DNA of 39,092 nucleotides from IMG/VR virus record IMGVR_UViG_3300021335_000035, positions 1 through 39,092 of that record; one strand, 5' to 3'. Of the stretch, positions 1,689-37,257 are shown piece by piece. The notes beneath the pieces were generated by a model. It had not been told where the DNA came from and searched no databases. It saw only the letters and a program-made list of their open reading frames with translations. The DNA is from a virus. The stretch's first letter is position 1. Every line of letters begins with the position of its first letter. The translations under genes and the position numbers were made by a program.

Positions 1689-3803
1689 ATGAGTAAATAT
1701 ACAAAAACCATGAGAGATGCCCTTGCAGAAATGACAGAGGCGTTCTCCACAAAACAAATAAAAATGGCAATCGGTATTGCATCAGATAAAAGATATGCTG
1801 GTGGTAATATGACAGGTGCTGTTAAACAAATTGAGAAACTTAAAAAGGGATTGTCTGACCATCCACAAGTCGCTGCTGTTTTGAAAAGACAAAACGAAAT
1901 GTATGATTCAGATACAGAACATACTAAAGACCCAAAGAGTCATGTCAAACTTAATAAAGAAACTGGTAAATACTGCGTTTACGATATGAAAGATAAGAAG
2001 GTTGCAGAGTTTGATACAAAGGACGAAGCAGAAGCATATTCAATAAAAAATCATGATGCATTGATGAATGAACAACAACTAGATTATGGAAGTATTGATG
2101 AAGGTAGAATGAAAGAACTTCATGGTTACATTGCAAAGGGAATGTCTGCTGAAGACATTGCAAAGAAAATGAAACTTGATTTGAAAACAATCAAAGCACT
2201 TGTGAAAGAAGAAGTTGAACAAGAAGAGTGTGAGTGTTGTGAAGAAACACCATGTGTCTGTGAAGATGATTGTGAGTGTAAGTCACTTGGTGAAAATCGT
2301 GCGGCAAGAGATGCAAAACGAGCAATGTCAAAAGATAAGGATATGCAACAAAGACCATTTGATAAAGATGATAAAGCATCAATGATTGATACTATGAAAG
2401 CTAAAAAGAATATTGTTGTTCAGTTAAAGAAAGCAACGAACTTGGGTGGTAGTAAACCGATTGAATTTGATAGTGGCCCATCTAAAAAGATTGACCCAAA
2501 GTTTGCAAAGGCTGCTTTAGATAAGTTGAACAAAATCAAAAAGTCAGATGATAGGTTGAAGTTCCAAGCAAAACTTTCAAAGTCATACAAAGATATGTTA
2601 CAGGCACTAAAAGAAGACTTTGAACTTGTCGAAGCAAAGTTTAGTGATGATATGATTGATAAACTTAGAAAAGCATATGAACCATTGAAAGGTAAAAAGA
2701 TTCCACCAGGCCCTTTAATGAAAATATTTGATAAAATTGATTCAAATGAAGATGGTTTGAAACAATTGTATAAAGCAGATATACCTTTTGTTAGTGTGAT
2801 GGCAATGTCAAGACTTATGCTAAGACACAATTATAAAGCAACTGACATAAACAAACTTGGTAAAATCAGAAGAGAAGATTTCGTACTTGATAAAGCAATC
2901 AACGAAGCGGTCAATTACAATTTTGCCGCAGTAGATAAAAAGGGTAAAGTCATTGGTTTTTCATCTAAGGAATCTGATGCAAAGGATATGGCAAGAAGAA
3001 ACAAAGGTAGAGTTGTTACTCTAACAAAACCTCTTGCACCAAAAAAGGGTGATATGATGGTTAACAGACCATTCCCAGATGAGATGGATAAGTTTCCAAC
3101 TAATACGAGTGCAACTCAAGGTAAACGTATGGAAGAAGTTGAACTTGATGAAAGAAAGTTTGAAGCTGGTAAGTCTGCATCTGGTTACGATATATTCCAT
3201 AAAGACTTTTCATCTGCAATGCAACACGCAACTGCATTTGCAAAGAAAAAAGGACAACCAATCAAGAAAGATGAGATTGACAATAAAGTTGCAACAGGGC
3301 CTAAAAAACCTAGTTCTGGTAAAGAAAACTCATATACTCTTGAAACTGAAAAAGGTAAGATGTGGTCTGTCCAAGTGTACAACATGGGTAGTAAATTTGA
3401 ACTTAATATGTACTTAACATCATCCCATGTTCCAGAGGGTGAAGAACTTGATGAAATGAAGATGAATGACCCTAAGTTAAACAAAATCTTTGATAAACTA
3501 AAGAAGGGTTCTAAGGTTAAACTAAAAACCAGTTCCACAATTAGTCAAGGTAAAGATTATGTGGAGTACATTGTCAAGTCAAAGAACACAGTAAATAAAG
3601 GTAGAGTGGAAAAGATTACACTTGCAACTGTGGGTAATGAGAAGGCAGTCAAGAAGTTCCTATACAAGAGAGATGGTCAAGTAACATTTGCTATCGGTGA
3701 TATGGGTGCATCTATTGACGATATTAAAGAGAGTACTAATGAAGTACCAGAAAACATGGCTGCGTACCTTGCTGCTATAACAAAACAACTAGGAGAAAGA
3801 TAA
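1689..3803 (+). CDS. Large modular virion-associated protein with cysteine cluster
   Basis: Protein of 704 aa with an AAGGAAAAAAC ribosome site before the ATG. The N-terminal ~70 residues (AIGIASDKRYAGGNMTGAV) form a module common in marine T4-like phages. A helix-turn-helix-like segment (MSAEDIAKKMKLDLKTIKAL, residues 152-171) is followed by seven cysteines in 17 residues (C181-C197), which may bind metal. Later modules are lysine-rich and separated by acidic linkers with LxE or IxE sites: SIDE (~136), ELVEAKF, ELDERKF (bases 3144-3152) and ELDEMK (3447-3455). The pattern suggests a polyprotein-like internal head protein cut by the prohead protease. The stop overlaps the next start by one base (TAATG). 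No enzyme motif was recognised. Confidence 0.7.
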   Translation: MSKYTKTMRDALAEMTEAFSTKQIKMAIGIASDKRYAGGNMTGAVKQIEKLKKGLSDHPQVAAVLKRQNEMYDSDTEHTKDPKSHVKLNKETGKYCVYDMKDKKVAEFDTKDEAEAYSIKNHDALMNEQQLDYGSIDEGRMKELHGYIAKGMSAEDIAKKMKLDLKTIKALVKEEVEQEECECCEETPCVCEDDCECKSLGENRAARDAKRAMSKDKDMQQRPFDKDDKASMIDTMKAKKNIVVQLKKATNLGGSKPIEFDSGPSKKIDPKFAKAALDKLNKIKKSDDRLKFQAKLSKSYKDMLQALKEDFELVEAKFSDDMIDKLRKAYEPLKGKKIPPGPLMKIFDKIDSNEDGLKQLYKADIPFVSVMAMSRLMLRHNYKATDINKLGKIRREDFVLDKAINEAVNYNFAAVDKKGKVIGFSSKESDAKDMARRNKGRVVTLTKPLAPKKGDMMVNRPFPDEMDKFPTNTSATQGKRMEEVELDERKFEAGKSASGYDIFHKDFSSAMQHATAFAKKKGQPIKKDEIDNKVATGPKKPSSGKENSYTLETEKGKMWSVQVYNMGSKFELNMYLTSSHVPEGEELDEMKMNDPKLNKIFDKLKKGSKVKLKTSSTISQGKDYVEYIVKSKNTVNKGRVEKITLATVGNEKAVKKFLYKRDGQVTFAIGDMGASIDDIKESTNEVPENMAAYLAAITKQLGER

Positions 3804-20558: not shown

Positions 20559-20591
20559 ATATGTATAGTCAAGAGAGAGAAAGGACTTCAA

Positions 20592-25389: not shown

Positions 25390-25848
25390 ATGGCAGTGAA
25401 TACATATACACCTCTTATTCATGAGGTGCTGAAGAAAGTTCATAATGCAAAGACTAAAGAGAAAAAGGTTGAAATCCTTAGAGATAATAATAGTGATGCA
25501 TTAAGAATAATTATAAAGGGTTCGTTTGACCCTAACATCGAATGGATTGTACCAGAAGGTGACGTTCCTTACAATAAGAATGAAGCCCCAGATGGAACTG
25601 AACACACTTTACTCTTTCAAGAGTCAAAGAAGTTGTGGAGATTCATCAAAGGTGCAGACACGAAAACACCCCAATGGAAGAAGGAAAATATGTTCGTTCA
25701 GATGTTGGAAGGTCTGTCTCAAGGTGAGGCAGAAGTGGTGGTTGCCGCTAAAGATAAAAAACTACATCAAGTCTACAAAGGACTTTCAGCGGCTGTTGTA
25801 AAAGAAGCATTTTATTGGAATGATGAATTTTATAATCCAAGTAAGTAA
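25390..25848 (+). CDS. Conserved T4-like phage protein (DUF6433-like)
   Basis: ATG 25390, overlapping nothing and one base after the RNase H stop. Sequence EVLKKVHNAKTKEKKVEILR, RIIIKGSFDPNIEWIVPEG, then FVQMLEGLSQGEAEVVVAAK and KGLSAAVVKEAF is a highly conserved pattern of marine T4-like phages. Mostly helical; function unknown. The gene ends seven bases before the promoter of a candidate small RNA. Confidence 0.7.
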   Translation: MAVNTYTPLIHEVLKKVHNAKTKEKKVEILRDNNSDALRIIIKGSFDPNIEWIVPEGDVPYNKNEAPDGTEHTLLFQESKKLWRFIKGADTKTPQWKKENMFVQMLEGLSQGEAEVVVAAKDKKLHQVYKGLSAAVVKEAFYWNDEFYNPSK

Positions 25849-25854
25849 AACTTC

Positions 25855-25883
25855 TTGACAATACGGTACTTTTAGGGTACTAT
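25855..25883 (+). promoter_or_regulatory. Sigma70-like promoter of the small RNA
   Basis: TTGACA (25855-25860), 17-bp spacer, TACTAT (25878-25883); TATGAT at 25881 is an alternative. No gene follows for 230 bases; a terminator lies ~125 bases downstream. Confidence 0.65.
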
Positions 25884-25889
25884 GATTAA

Positions 25890-26013
25890 AGACTTGGTAA
25901 TGAAGTTGTAATGATGAGAACGGAACACTACTCCTCTCTCTCTCACTTGAAGTGTTCTGATTCGACAGGTGATTCGCTAAAGTCTTAGGGGGGATGAAAA
26001 TCCCCCCTTTTTT
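25890..26013 (+). ncRNA. Candidate trans-acting small RNA (~124 nt)
   Basis: Stand-alone unit between a promoter and a strong terminator without a credible ORF. GAACACT (25923-25929) pairs with AGTGTTC (25951-25957), exposing a 21-base loop with CTCCTCTCTCTCTC, complementary to purine-rich Shine-Dalgarno sites. GACTT near the 5' end can pair with AAGTC before the terminator, giving a closed outer stem. Possible targets seen in the window are GGGAGAGAGAG before 36778, GGAGAGGAG before thyX and GAGAGAGAAAGGA before 20592. The role is inferred from complementarity only. Confidence 0.6.
25988..26013 (+). terminator. Rho-independent terminator
   Basis: Perfect 8-bp stem GGGGGGAT/ATCCCCCC with a GAAA tetraloop and six T. 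It ends the small RNA. 26014-26054 shows nothing else. Confidence 0.9.
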
Positions 26014-26054
26014 ATTGTCCTAACTCCTTGAAATATAAGGGAAATATTTACTCC

Positions 26055-26083
26055 TTGACATTGTTATCAAAACAGAGTATACT
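26055..26083 (+). promoter_or_regulatory. Sigma70-like promoter, conserved-spacer family
   Basis: TTGACA (26055-26060), 17-bp spacer TTGTTATCAAAACAGAG, TATACT (26078-26083). It is nearly identical over ~45 bp to the promoter at 20530. It drives the SprT-like gene and probably the operon after it. Confidence 0.8.
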
Positions 26084-26116: not shown

Positions 26117-26545
26117 ATGAATTACGTTACTGCAAATGGAGGCAACAAAGGTCAGAGAAAACTCTGTGAAGATGTTGCTAACTTTATGATTGGTAAATTG
26201 ATGCCTAGAATGAGAACTCTGGATATCGAAATCAATCTACAGAAACTTACAGGTGATGTCGTTGGTTGGTGTCAAATGAATGATACAAACCGTGAGTTTA
26301 CACTTGATATTTCTAAAGATTTAACAATCAAAGAATTGGTTACTACAATTTGTCATGAGATGATTCATGTCAAACAGTATGCCAGAAAAGAAATGACTGA
26401 CAATCTAGTTGAGAATGGTCAGGCAGTTTGGAGAGGTCGTAAGGTCAATCCTAACACAAAGTATTACGATTTACCTTGGGAGAAGGAAGCGTATCGTCTA
26501 CAAGACAAATTTGCAAACCTAGTATGGAATGAGGAGATTATATAA
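26117..26545 (+). CDS. SprT-like zinc metalloprotease
   Basis: Protein of 142 aa with the zinc motif HEMIH (H80, E81, H84) in TTICHEMIHVKQYARKEM and a downstream WEKEAY that can supply the third ligand, as in SprT/Wss1-type peptidases. The fold order fits the minimal SprT domain. It could cleave DNA-bound proteins or a host factor early in infection. GAAAGAAGG precedes the ATG, behind a strong promoter. Confidence 0.75.
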   Translation: MNYVTANGGNKGQRKLCEDVANFMIGKLMPRMRTLDIEINLQKLTGDVVGWCQMNDTNREFTLDISKDLTIKELVTTICHEMIHVKQYARKEMTDNLVENGQAVWRGRKVNPNTKYYDLPWEKEAYRLQDKFANLVWNEEII

Positions 26546-31438: not shown

Positions 31439-31623
31439 ACATAGTCTGGCACCTATTATTGACAGTGTGCCTTGGAAGTACCTGTGTAGAACAGGATGTT
31501 CAGTGGTTTGATGAAGAAGAACAGTGTAAAGAACTATTACCAGTGTACGCTGGTATTCCTACTGATGGTGATTGGGATACAGTCGAATATATCTGCAAAC
31601 CTGTAGGAAGTAGAGGAGTATAG
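31435..31623 (+). CDS. Small exported protein, 62 aa
   Basis: ATGA overlap with the previous gene. Short signal-like start (MNIVWHLLLTVCLGS) and then CVEQDVQWFDEEEQCKELLP and a last CKP; cysteines could pair after export. The QWFDxxxQC pattern recurs in small proteins of marine phages. Function unknown. Confidence 0.6.
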   Translation: MNIVWHLLLTVCLGSTCVEQDVQWFDEEEQCKELLPVYAGIPTDGDWDTVEYICKPVGSRGV

Positions 31624-31624
31624 A

Positions 31625-32035
31625 ATGTACGAATATAAATGTAAACTAGTCAAGGTCGTTGATGGTGACACAATTGATGTTGACATTGATTTGGGTTTTG
31701 GTGTATGGATGCAAAATCAAAGAATCAGAATGTATGGAATTGATACGCCTGAATCTAGAACATCTGACCCAATTGAAAAAGTGTATGGTAAAGCTGCATC
31801 TGCATTTCTAACTAAATGGACAAATGCTGGTGACCTTACTTTGAAAACATTCAAAGATGGTAAGGGTAAGTATGGACGTATTCTAGGAGAGATTTGGTTT
31901 GGTGGTGAACACAATATCAATCAACTTTTAGTAGACAATCATCATGCAGTACGCTACTATGGTCAATCTAAAGATGAGATTGCAGAAGAACATATTGCAA
32001 ATCGTTCTATTTTGTCCTTGACAAATGAAGAGTAA
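31625..32035 (+). CDS. SNase-like thermonuclease
   Basis: Protein of 136 aa with staphylococcal-nuclease active-site residues: R35, D40 and E43 in RIRMYGIDTPESR and an Arg in GKYGRILGEIW (R85). No signal peptide, so it acts in the cytoplasm, probably degrading host nucleic acid or recycling nucleotides. The start follows the previous stop by one base. The -35 box of the tmRNA promoter lies in its last codons. Confidence 0.82.
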   Translation: MYEYKCKLVKVVDGDTIDVDIDLGFGVWMQNQRIRMYGIDTPESRTSDPIEKVYGKAASAFLTKWTNAGDLTLKTFKDGKGKYGRILGEIWFGGEHNINQLLVDNHHAVRYYGQSKDEIAEEHIANRSILSLTNEE

Positions 32036-32046
32036 TTTGGTATAAA
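32018..32046 (+). promoter_or_regulatory. Overlapping early and late promoter of the tmRNA
   Basis: TTGACA (32018-32023), 17-bp spacer, TATAAA (32041-32046); the same bases form the late octamer TATAAATA (32041-32048). The tmRNA could therefore be made both early and late. Confidence 0.65.
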
Positions 32047-32049
32047 TAT

Positions 32050-32338
32050 AATACAATTTGATGATACAAATCAAATACTGGACAGGACATGGGGGCAGTA
32101 CCCATCGCCTCCACCATAATCTCACTTCTAGATGAGATATTGAATCACTGCTTGGGAGTGGGATTATGATGGGGGCGAACTAGGTTCGACTGACAGGGAT
32201 AGAGGCGAGTAGAATTGTCGGATGACTGCGTAATAGGTCAAAACTCGTAAATGCAAACGATAACAATGCATATGTAGATTACGCTATCGCAGCTTAATCG
32301 TACTGAGTTTCGGTGGTGTACTTGGAAACAGAAACACC
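32050..32338 (+). ncRNA. ssrA: Permuted (two-piece) tmRNA
   Basis: Acceptor piece: T-arm ATGGG-GGCAGTA-CCCAT, then acceptor strand CGCCTCC, discriminator A and encoded CCA (32114-32116). A spacer hairpin (32117-32170) follows. Coding piece: GGGGGCG (32171-32177) pairs with CGCCTCC across the permutation, then the D-like segment with GGTTCGAC, and a tag ORF starting GCA at 32253 that reads ANDNNAYVDYAIAA and stops at 32295-32297. A last hairpin GTGGTGT/ACACCAC closes the region. The order and tag start match alphaproteobacterial two-piece tmRNA. It may rescue ribosomes during infection and tag products for host proteases. Exact mature ends are not known. Confidence 0.88.
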
Positions 32339-32360
32339 ACCACTTAATTTTGGAGATAGT

Positions 32361-34027: not shown

Positions 34028-34220
34028 GTCTTACAAAATATTCCAAGGCGGTTATGTCATCCCAGCAAAGGATGACAGGCCTGCCGACTATGTGAAAGCA
34101 AAACCACCTGTATTTCATTGTCAAGTATTTAATGGAAAACAGACTACCGCTTTCTTTACTAGAAAAACATATGCTGAAGCAAAACAAGAAGGAGAGGAGT
34201 CAATGAAACTTGGAAGTTGA
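34014..34220 (+). CDS. Unknown small protein, 68 aa
   Basis: ATG 34014 with AAGGAG seven bases upstream, overlapping the previous gene by 14 bases. Sequence MPDTRSYKIFQGGYVIPAKD and FHCQVFNGKQTTAFFTRKTY; compact beta-rich. Its last codons run over the likely original start region of thyX, so its 3' end may be affected by a frame change there. Confidence 0.5.
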   Translation: MPDTRSYKIFQGGYVIPAKDDRPADYVKAKPPVFHCQVFNGKQTTAFFTRKTYAEAKQEGEESMKLGS

Positions 34221-36624: not shown

Positions 36625-36708
36625 AGGGTAGGTTATCCATCCCTGTGCAGAAAGTCTCTTACCAGAGTCGTAACACCACAAAAAGATAACACTTAGTAGA
36701 AGAAGATG

Positions 36709-36740
36709 GAGAGGCAGGGGCAACCCTGTCTCTCTTTTTT
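36709..36740 (+). terminator. Rho-independent terminator after gp32
   Basis: GAGAGGCAGGG/CCCTGTCTCTC forms an 11-bp stem (one G-T pair) with a GCAA tetraloop and six T. The gap 36625-36708 has no ORF or clear signal. Confidence 0.9.
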
Positions 36741-36741
36741 A

Positions 36742-36748
36742 CTAAATA
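36742..36748 (+). promoter_or_regulatory. Late promoter-like CTAAATA
   Basis: CTAAATAG directly follows the gp32 terminator and lies ~30 bases before the next ATG. It is identical to the element before 11736, and its place after a strong terminator makes a real promoter likely. Confidence 0.55.
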
Positions 36749-36777
36749 GTGGTGTAAGTCGTCAATGGGAGAGAGAG

Positions 36778-37257
36778 ATGATTGAGATTGTTGCTGCCGT
36801 TTCGGCAGCGTCTAGTGCGTTCAACGCCATCAAAAAAGGTTTTGAGGTCGGCCGTGATATTGAATCTATGGCCGGAGATATGGGTCGATGGATGGGTGCA
36901 GTATCAGATATTAGAAAAGCAGAAGAATACAATAAGAAGCCACCCCTCTTTAAAAAGATATTTCAGGCAGGGTCAGTGGAAGAAGAAGCTATGCAAATCT
37001 TTATGGCAAAAAAGAAGGCCGAAGATATGCGTGGACAACTAAAACAGATTATTACATTTAGTAGGGGCCCAAGTGCATGGGAAGAACTCTTGAAAACTGA
37101 GGGCGAAATTCGTAAGAAACGTCAAGCAATGATATATGCACAAAAAGAACGACAACGATTTTGGGTAGAGGCATTCTTTGGTACAATATTAATTAGTGGA
37201 ATGTTATTTTTAGGTTATCTATTCATACTATGGTTAATGTCAGTAAAGGGTGTTTAA
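36778..37257 (+). CDS. Membrane-anchored helical protein, 159 aa
   Basis: ATG 36778 right after GGGAGAGAGAG; the frame from 36706 runs through the terminator and is rejected. The N-terminal part (IVAAVSAASSAFNAIKKGFE) looks like a small-residue helix, the middle is basic (EEEAMQIFMAKKKAEDMRGQ) and the end is one membrane helix (ILISGMLFLGYLFILWLMSV). Conserved in marine T4-like phages, function unknown. A 7-bp hairpin (36793-36809) lies in the first codons. Confidence 0.65.
   Translation: MIEIVAAVSAASSAFNAIKKGFEVGRDIESMAGDMGRWMGAVSDIRKAEEYNKKPPLFKKIFQAGSVEEEAMQIFMAKKKAEDMRGQLKQIITFSRGPSAWEELLKTEGEIRKKRQAMIYAQKERQRFWVEAFFGTILISGMLFLGYLFILWLMSVKGV

Follow-up and report, generated by a model that had tools for sequence, protein, structure and literature searches.

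A Family of Putative Antisense Small RNAs Directed at Ribosome Sites of Marine T4-Like Phages

Anatomy of the Small RNA Gene

The window, that is the whole stretch of 39,092 nucleotides of viral DNA analysed here, contains a small RNA gene at positions 25889–26014. Like all the features positioned below, it lies on the plus strand; it was delimited from its promoter, its terminator, its predicted fold and the alignment of relatives, and was assigned to class A of the family described in the next section. The gene is flanked by a DUF6433 gene (25390–25848) and by a SprT-like protease gene (26117–26545, a call made from a weak Pfam match under the curated cut-off). A good sigma70-type promoter was recognised in the sequence at 25855–25883, with TTGACA at 25855–25860, a 17-nt spacer and TACTAT at 25878–25883. 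A strong intrinsic terminator with a T-run occupies positions 25987–26014, its hairpin AGGGGGGAT-GAAA-ATCCCCCCT covering 25987–26008. The stand-alone gene with its own promoter and terminator described in an earlier note on this DNA was thus found. The GNRA cap which that note gave to the terminator is real in the window, but it is not kept in relatives and is therefore incidental. The note also saw no ORF, which is nearly right: one same-strand ORF of 25 codons exists (25911–25988), but it is disrupted by indels of 1–2 nt among relatives. Judged by sequence, the gene is non-coding and has its own promoter and terminator, which are features of an sRNA gene.

In the predicted fold, an outer stem encloses an apical hairpin whose loop is CU-rich, and the terminator hairpin follows. 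The arms of the outer stem, AAGACTT at 25889–25895 and AAGTCTT at 25980–25986, are nearly invariant among relatives. The apical hairpin (25921–25959), which matches our hairpin descriptor and shows a compensatory change among relatives, has a 9-bp stem with arms at 25921–25929 and 25951–25959 and a 21-nt loop, ACTCCTCTCTCTCTCACTTGA, at 25930–25950. Conservation, accessibility and complementarity to targets all point to this loop as the pairing element. The folding energy was lower than that of shuffled sequences (z -2.5), and the CU stretch was largely unpaired (computed mean unpaired probability 0.71). At the gathering threshold, an Rfam scan of the window listed the tmRNA alone and left the RNA gene without a family. 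The best match of a permissive Rfam search, sraA, was rejected, being on the opposite strand and reflecting the terminator.

An inverted repeat, GGTACTT/TTA/GGGTACT (25865–25881, within 25861–25883), extends into the -10 element of the promoter. Such a repeat was present in 43 of 51 RNA promoters compared with 18% of spacer-shuffled controls. It differs from TGTT-N5-AACA, an element present in many other early promoters, which suggests a separate control of the RNA. The arms of the repeat co-vary between phages (AGTAAC/GTTACT, GTGTCC/GGATAC, TGATAC/GTATCA). Many early promoters of these phages, among them the one at 26055–26083 in the window and similar ones in relatives, contain an operator-like inverted repeat, TTGTTnTnAnAACA.

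The RNA Family in Marine T4-Like Phages

Some 30 viral contigs carry the class A RNA, flanked there too by orthologs of the DUF6433 and SprT-like genes. The earlier note had staked its reading on the conservation of the loop in related phages, and the CU loop ACTCCTCTCTCTCTCACTT was indeed kept in 17 aligned class A copies, with a slight variation in repeat number. In the same copies, a stem switch from AACAC/GTGTT to AACTC/GAGTT represents a compensatory change. More distant marine T4-like contigs carry a like type of loop on wholly unrelated stems: GTTGGGGG in class B, ATGGTGAGGGCAAC and many others in class C, ATAATATGGT in class D, ACGACCTATATGAC in class E and TGTGATACC in class F. The isolate Melnitz carries an RNA of the family with the stem ATGGATGGGAATTC. 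These distant RNAs are mostly close to the protease gene, and a tRNA-Gly often comes after them. With the hairpin descriptor, 69 distinct hairpins were obtained, about 60 of them judged genuine; the descriptor matched once in the window and about 0.0–0.8 times per strand in most shuffled contigs, with up to 1.8 matches per strand in shuffled Mosig.

The alignment of 28 class C sequences showed compensatory changes in 12 of the 14 pairs of the stem. The covariation score was 0.421 compared with 0.187 ± 0.017 after shuffling (0 of 500 shuffles reached the observed value) and with 0.05–0.15 for slid partners, and the invariant columns were all located inside the CU loop. The stem sequence varies while the loop persists, and the number of CU repeats drifts. 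A conserved and accessible pairing element is here carried by a conserved structure, as in other sRNAs. The free stem, the persistent loop and the drifting repeat number would also suit a loop that binds or sequesters a pyrimidine-tract protein such as Rho or ribosomal protein S1, and YC repeats are typical of Rho ligands. We consider it very unlikely that the loop serves in this way instead of as an antisense element, since the loop covaries with its targets at letters other than C and U (see below), which is unexpected for a protein ligand.

A class C covariance model, R1, matched Melnitz with E = 9.1e-15 and gave nothing convincing in HTVC008M, Mosig, P-SSM2, S-SM2, S-H9-1, Cr30, phiN3 and phage C48C1; as this model recognises class C specifically and gives poor scores on class A, these negative results cover class C-like RNAs. 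Mosig was negative with the general hairpin descriptor too. The contigs being fragments, the absence of the RNA from one of them is weak evidence. A search for hosts through the Fe-S protein gene led to distant bacteria only.

In Melnitz, the annotated CDS_66 (MZ577097.1 38547–38726; L002 5015–5194) spans the RNA hairpin and the terminator; this CDS is probably spurious and not a gene. The words “sRNA” and “ncRNA” are absent from the main text of the Melnitz paper. Directly after the class C RNA (L045, L052, L071 and other loci), and ahead of the terminator, there is often a tRNA-Gly(TCC) or a tRNA-like sequence, which suggests that the RNA and this neighbour are co-transcribed and processed. 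In L049, L051 and L062, relatives without the RNA at the usual locus, GACTCCTCTCTCTCAACACTAG was seen around position 3575 inside a small membrane-protein gene. The CTCTCTCTC stretch in this coding DNA has neither the family promoter nor the hairpin and was not accepted as a family member. The loop-like motif is probably due to chance, and possibly a relic.

Complementary Ribosome Sites in the Window and the Main Predicted Target

Complements were searched on both strands of each contig with its own loop as the query, ignoring gene positions. The best complement in the window outside the RNA gene was GGGAGAGAGAG at 36767–36777, directly 5' of the ATG at 36778. Of eight contigs scored, seven (the window, G003, G004, G008, G010, G017 and G028) had the ribosome site of gene 36778 or its ortholog in first rank, and the eighth, G001, had it in third. 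The site put first by this unbiased scan is one that the earlier note had listed. G041, in which a class D RNA occurs together with a class D site, was left out of this count as its automatic rank rested on a wrong hairpin.

Gene 36778 (36778–37257) encodes a protein of 159 aa (phrog_32327), predicted to be all-helical with a hydrophobic C-terminal helix. The predicted structure had a pLDDT of 75.5, a moderate confidence that does not warrant a fold search. All orthologs start at the codon corresponding to 36778. The sequence CTAAATAG at 36742–36749 (TATAAATA in relatives) is presumably a T4-type late promoter, judged by the general T4 late-promoter consensus. Most orthologs have such a promoter (TATAAATA or CTAAATAG) 15–30 nt upstream, so that the target site would be close to the 5' terminus of a late mRNA. 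The interval that separates the gp32-like gene from the late promoter of gene 36778 contains a terminator-like hairpin with a T-run (36706–36740), in the stem of which GGAGAGG and CTCTC also occur.

Five of the six perfect 9-nt complements of the loop on the plus strand were located at the starts 20592, 31625, 34203/34210 and 36778. These four genes compare with 0.94 ± 1.03 genes for pyrimidine-permuted loops (p = 0.03, in the window). The sites reported by the earlier note before 20592, 34203/34210 (thyX) and 36778 are thus real, and a fourth precedes the nuclease gene 31625. The candidate second site, AGAGAGAGAAAGGA at 20572–20585, stands before the promoter-led gene 20592, TAGAGGAGT at 31612–31620 before the nuclease gene and GAGAGGAGT at 34192–34200 before thyX at 34210. 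Across relatives, the 36778 site is kept and the 20592 site is GA-rich in several, while the thyX and nuclease sites vary.

Covariation of Loop and Site

The site GGGAGAGAGAG of class A faces the loop CUCUCUCUC. In class D, the site GAGAGAGUGAGAGGU and the loop ACCUCUCACUCUCUC match over 14–15 nt, and in class E the match between UUGCGAGUUAGAGAGAGGUACGU and ACGUACCUCUCUCAAACUCGCAA extends over 22 of 23 nt. A table of every site against every loop was strongly diagonal for classes C, D and E. The class D sites scored 35–38 with D loops compared with 20–26 with other loops, the class E site 54.7 with its own loop compared with 20–27, and the class C site 51 with its own loop compared with 22–31. 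The table was not diagonal for class A, the sites of which are plain GA repeats with a similar fit to most class loops. Site–loop matches were better than those of pyrimidine-permuted loops (p 0.0005–0.027). The covarying letters go beyond C and U, with CAC/GUG in class D, CUCGC/GCGAG in class E and UCAACU/AGUUGA in class C. The contigs of classes A, D and E share ancestry. Complementarity to a start site with covariation, a further feature of sRNAs, was found for classes A, D and E and in one class C contig, and was lacking in Melnitz and G006. The computed duplex energies were -24 kcal/mol for class A, -28 and -30 for D, -41.5 for E and -42 for C. Where both were computed, the duplexes with the 16S tail amounted to -12 to -15 kcal/mol compared with -24 to -42 for the loops.

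The sequence of the loop is similar to that of the 16S tail (ACUCCUC/ACCUCUC vs ACCUCCU), and the sole complete genome with the RNA, Melnitz, has no strong ribosome-site target of its own. Both observations would fit an RNA acting mainly as a broad anti-Shine-Dalgarno blocker of host mRNAs in host shut-off, with the sites in the phage as mere by-products. Such a role appears unlikely, as it has no need of the class-specific covariation with single phage genes in D, E and C, and as the CU repeat suits GAGAG better than the common AGGAG. The other proposal of the earlier note, a decoy binding the 3' tail of the host 16S rRNA, has next to no credibility. All that speaks for it is the relation of the loop to the Shine-Dalgarno sequence; loop and tail are of the same sense and cannot pair with each other. 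The loop can compete with the tail for mRNA, and the decoy then merges into the antisense explanation.

Ribosome Sites in Contigs with and without the RNA

Gene starts in the bulk counts came from a simple ORF caller. Among the sigma70-type promoter-led genes of genomes with the RNA, 43 of 107 had GAGAG-type sites and 11 of 107 had AGGAG, compared with 53 and 181, respectively, of 1014 other genes. In a larger set, GA-type sites preceded 52 of 149 early-promoter genes in contigs with the RNA and three of 44 in relatives without it (p = 1e-4), an association confounded by relatedness since the two groups of contigs differ in ancestry. The genes without early promoters showed no clear difference (5% and 4%, respectively).

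The pairing control used loops in which the C/T order alone was permuted. With promoter-led leaders, the true loops were better than the permuted ones in classes B, C, D and E (p 0.013–0.020) and marginally so in class A (p 0.066); the Melnitz loop was no better (p 0.48). With genes without such promoters, no clear advantage was seen (p = 0.10 in class A, the other classes falling below the permuted loops). The 16S rRNA tail, taken in its generally known sequence, was a poorer partner than the loops for the leaders of classes A, C, D and E and of Melnitz. Over all promoter-led genes, the co-variation between loop class and counts of ribosome-site motifs was weak. Double GA sites before an ATG, searched for by pattern, turned out to be mostly GA microsatellites in unrelated phages.

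Apparent Change of Target between Lineages

The class C contig G066 (51.8 kb) carries the RNA (CM E = 1.6e-16). Its best site, a 20-nt perfect complement, coincides with the ribosome site of a gene other than the 36778 ortholog, one that encodes an exported protein of 138 aa. Two orthologs of this gene were found on contigs of 35–37 kb that lack the RNA, and their sites are plain GGAG. In G006, the RNA has an aberrant class C loop and the 36778 ortholog has an unrelated site. The scan of the complete Melnitz genome showed no outstanding ribosome-site target. From these three cases, the target set appears to change between lineages, or else targets were missed or are in the host. GA sites are present in G002, a partial genome, and in G052, yet no RNA was found on either contig.

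Proposed Mechanism

We propose that the family RNA, encoded by the phage, acts in trans as an antisense small RNA and blocks ribosome sites on phage mRNAs, an interpretation which the gene anatomy, the conserved loop, the compensated stem and the co-varying targets make quite probable. The regulatory RNA blocking ribosome sites imagined in the earlier note is to this extent well supported. In this model, the sigma70-type promoter and the intrinsic terminator would delimit a transcript of about 125 nt, in which a stem of free sequence would present the CU-rich loop. The loop would pair with purine-rich (GAGAG-type) ribosome sites of phage mRNAs, chiefly the leader of gene 36778 and its orthologs. 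The duplex would cover the Shine-Dalgarno sequence and the spacer, keep off the 30S subunit and repress translation. Every site includes or abuts the Shine-Dalgarno sequence, and 30S occlusion is thus the simplest reading. We infer expression of the RNA, repression rather than activation, and the timing. The RNA would be made before or during late transcription, and late and some early leaders would remain silent until it is titrated. As an example, the late gene would be held down until its mRNA is abundant, and promoter-led early genes would be damped.

The phage thus probably relies on RNA pairing for the timing of its protein synthesis. More tentatively, the RNA may be a fast-evolving regulator in an abundant clade of ocean phages, with a free stem and a loop that co-evolves with its targets and is re-aimed at different phage genes by lineage (the late membrane-anchored protein in A, D and E, the exported protein in C). 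With matching sites on a wider set of early genes, one RNA could perhaps time the whole infection programme.

Relation to Known RNAs

Most of the known antisense RNAs of phages come from temperate phages that infect enterobacteria. Neither Rfam nor the literature searched, a collection with few subscription papers and preprints, had a record of the present RNA. The c4 RNA of phages P1 and P7 pairs, probably via loops, with a phage mRNA in the region of its ribosome site and blocks translation (PMC12197685). The RNA described here is likewise a phage RNA with predicted pairing at the ribosome site of phage mRNAs. However, c4 silences one antirepressor gene in temperate phages, whereas the family RNA is a separate small gene of marine T4-like phages with targets varying by lineage; the gathering-threshold Rfam scan of the window gave no c4 match.

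Among cyanobacterial sRNAs, Yfr1 carries a conserved 11-mer, ACUCCUCACAC (PMC2190773), and Yfr10 has a conserved motif in the loop atop a stem (PMC6778093); both act by pairing with mRNAs (PMC6778093, PMC2190773, PMC6974561). The Yfr1 11-mer and the loop of the window have ACUCCUC in common, but the motif of the family is ACUCCUCUCUC or (A)CCUCUCUCUCAACUCUCUC, and the 11-mer itself is absent from the window loop ACUCCUCUCUCUCUC and from ACCUCUCUCUC of the other classes. The motif is located in an apical loop and not unpaired between two stem-loops as in Yfr1. The Yfr1 covariance model RF01116 gave no match at the gathering score or with E up to 10. Failing on motif, architecture and Rfam model, the RNA was not filed as a member of Yfr1. 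The architecture is like that of Yfr10, with a motif that diverges after ACUCCUC. Unlike Yfr1 and Yfr10, the family RNA is phage-encoded, is directed at phage genes and has a stem of non-conserved sequence. SisA–D of Caulobacter are sibling sRNAs with a common anti-Shine-Dalgarno-like 10-mer, thought to repress many mRNAs (PMC12559287). They are encoded by the host whereas the family RNA is encoded by the phage.

The RNA, its target and their co-evolution were derived from comparative data alone, in widespread and mostly uncultured marine T4-like phages. The group includes one isolate, Melnitz, with a named host (Methylophilales H5P1), and the loop/target pairs, with their built-in compensatory changes, are available for direct testing. 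The results suggest a post-transcriptional timing of late genes, atop the T4-like transcriptional cascade. The tmRNA listed by Rfam (32014–32344) is of the permuted, two-piece alphaproteobacterial type with the tag ANDNNAYVDYAIAA, as reported for Melnitz.
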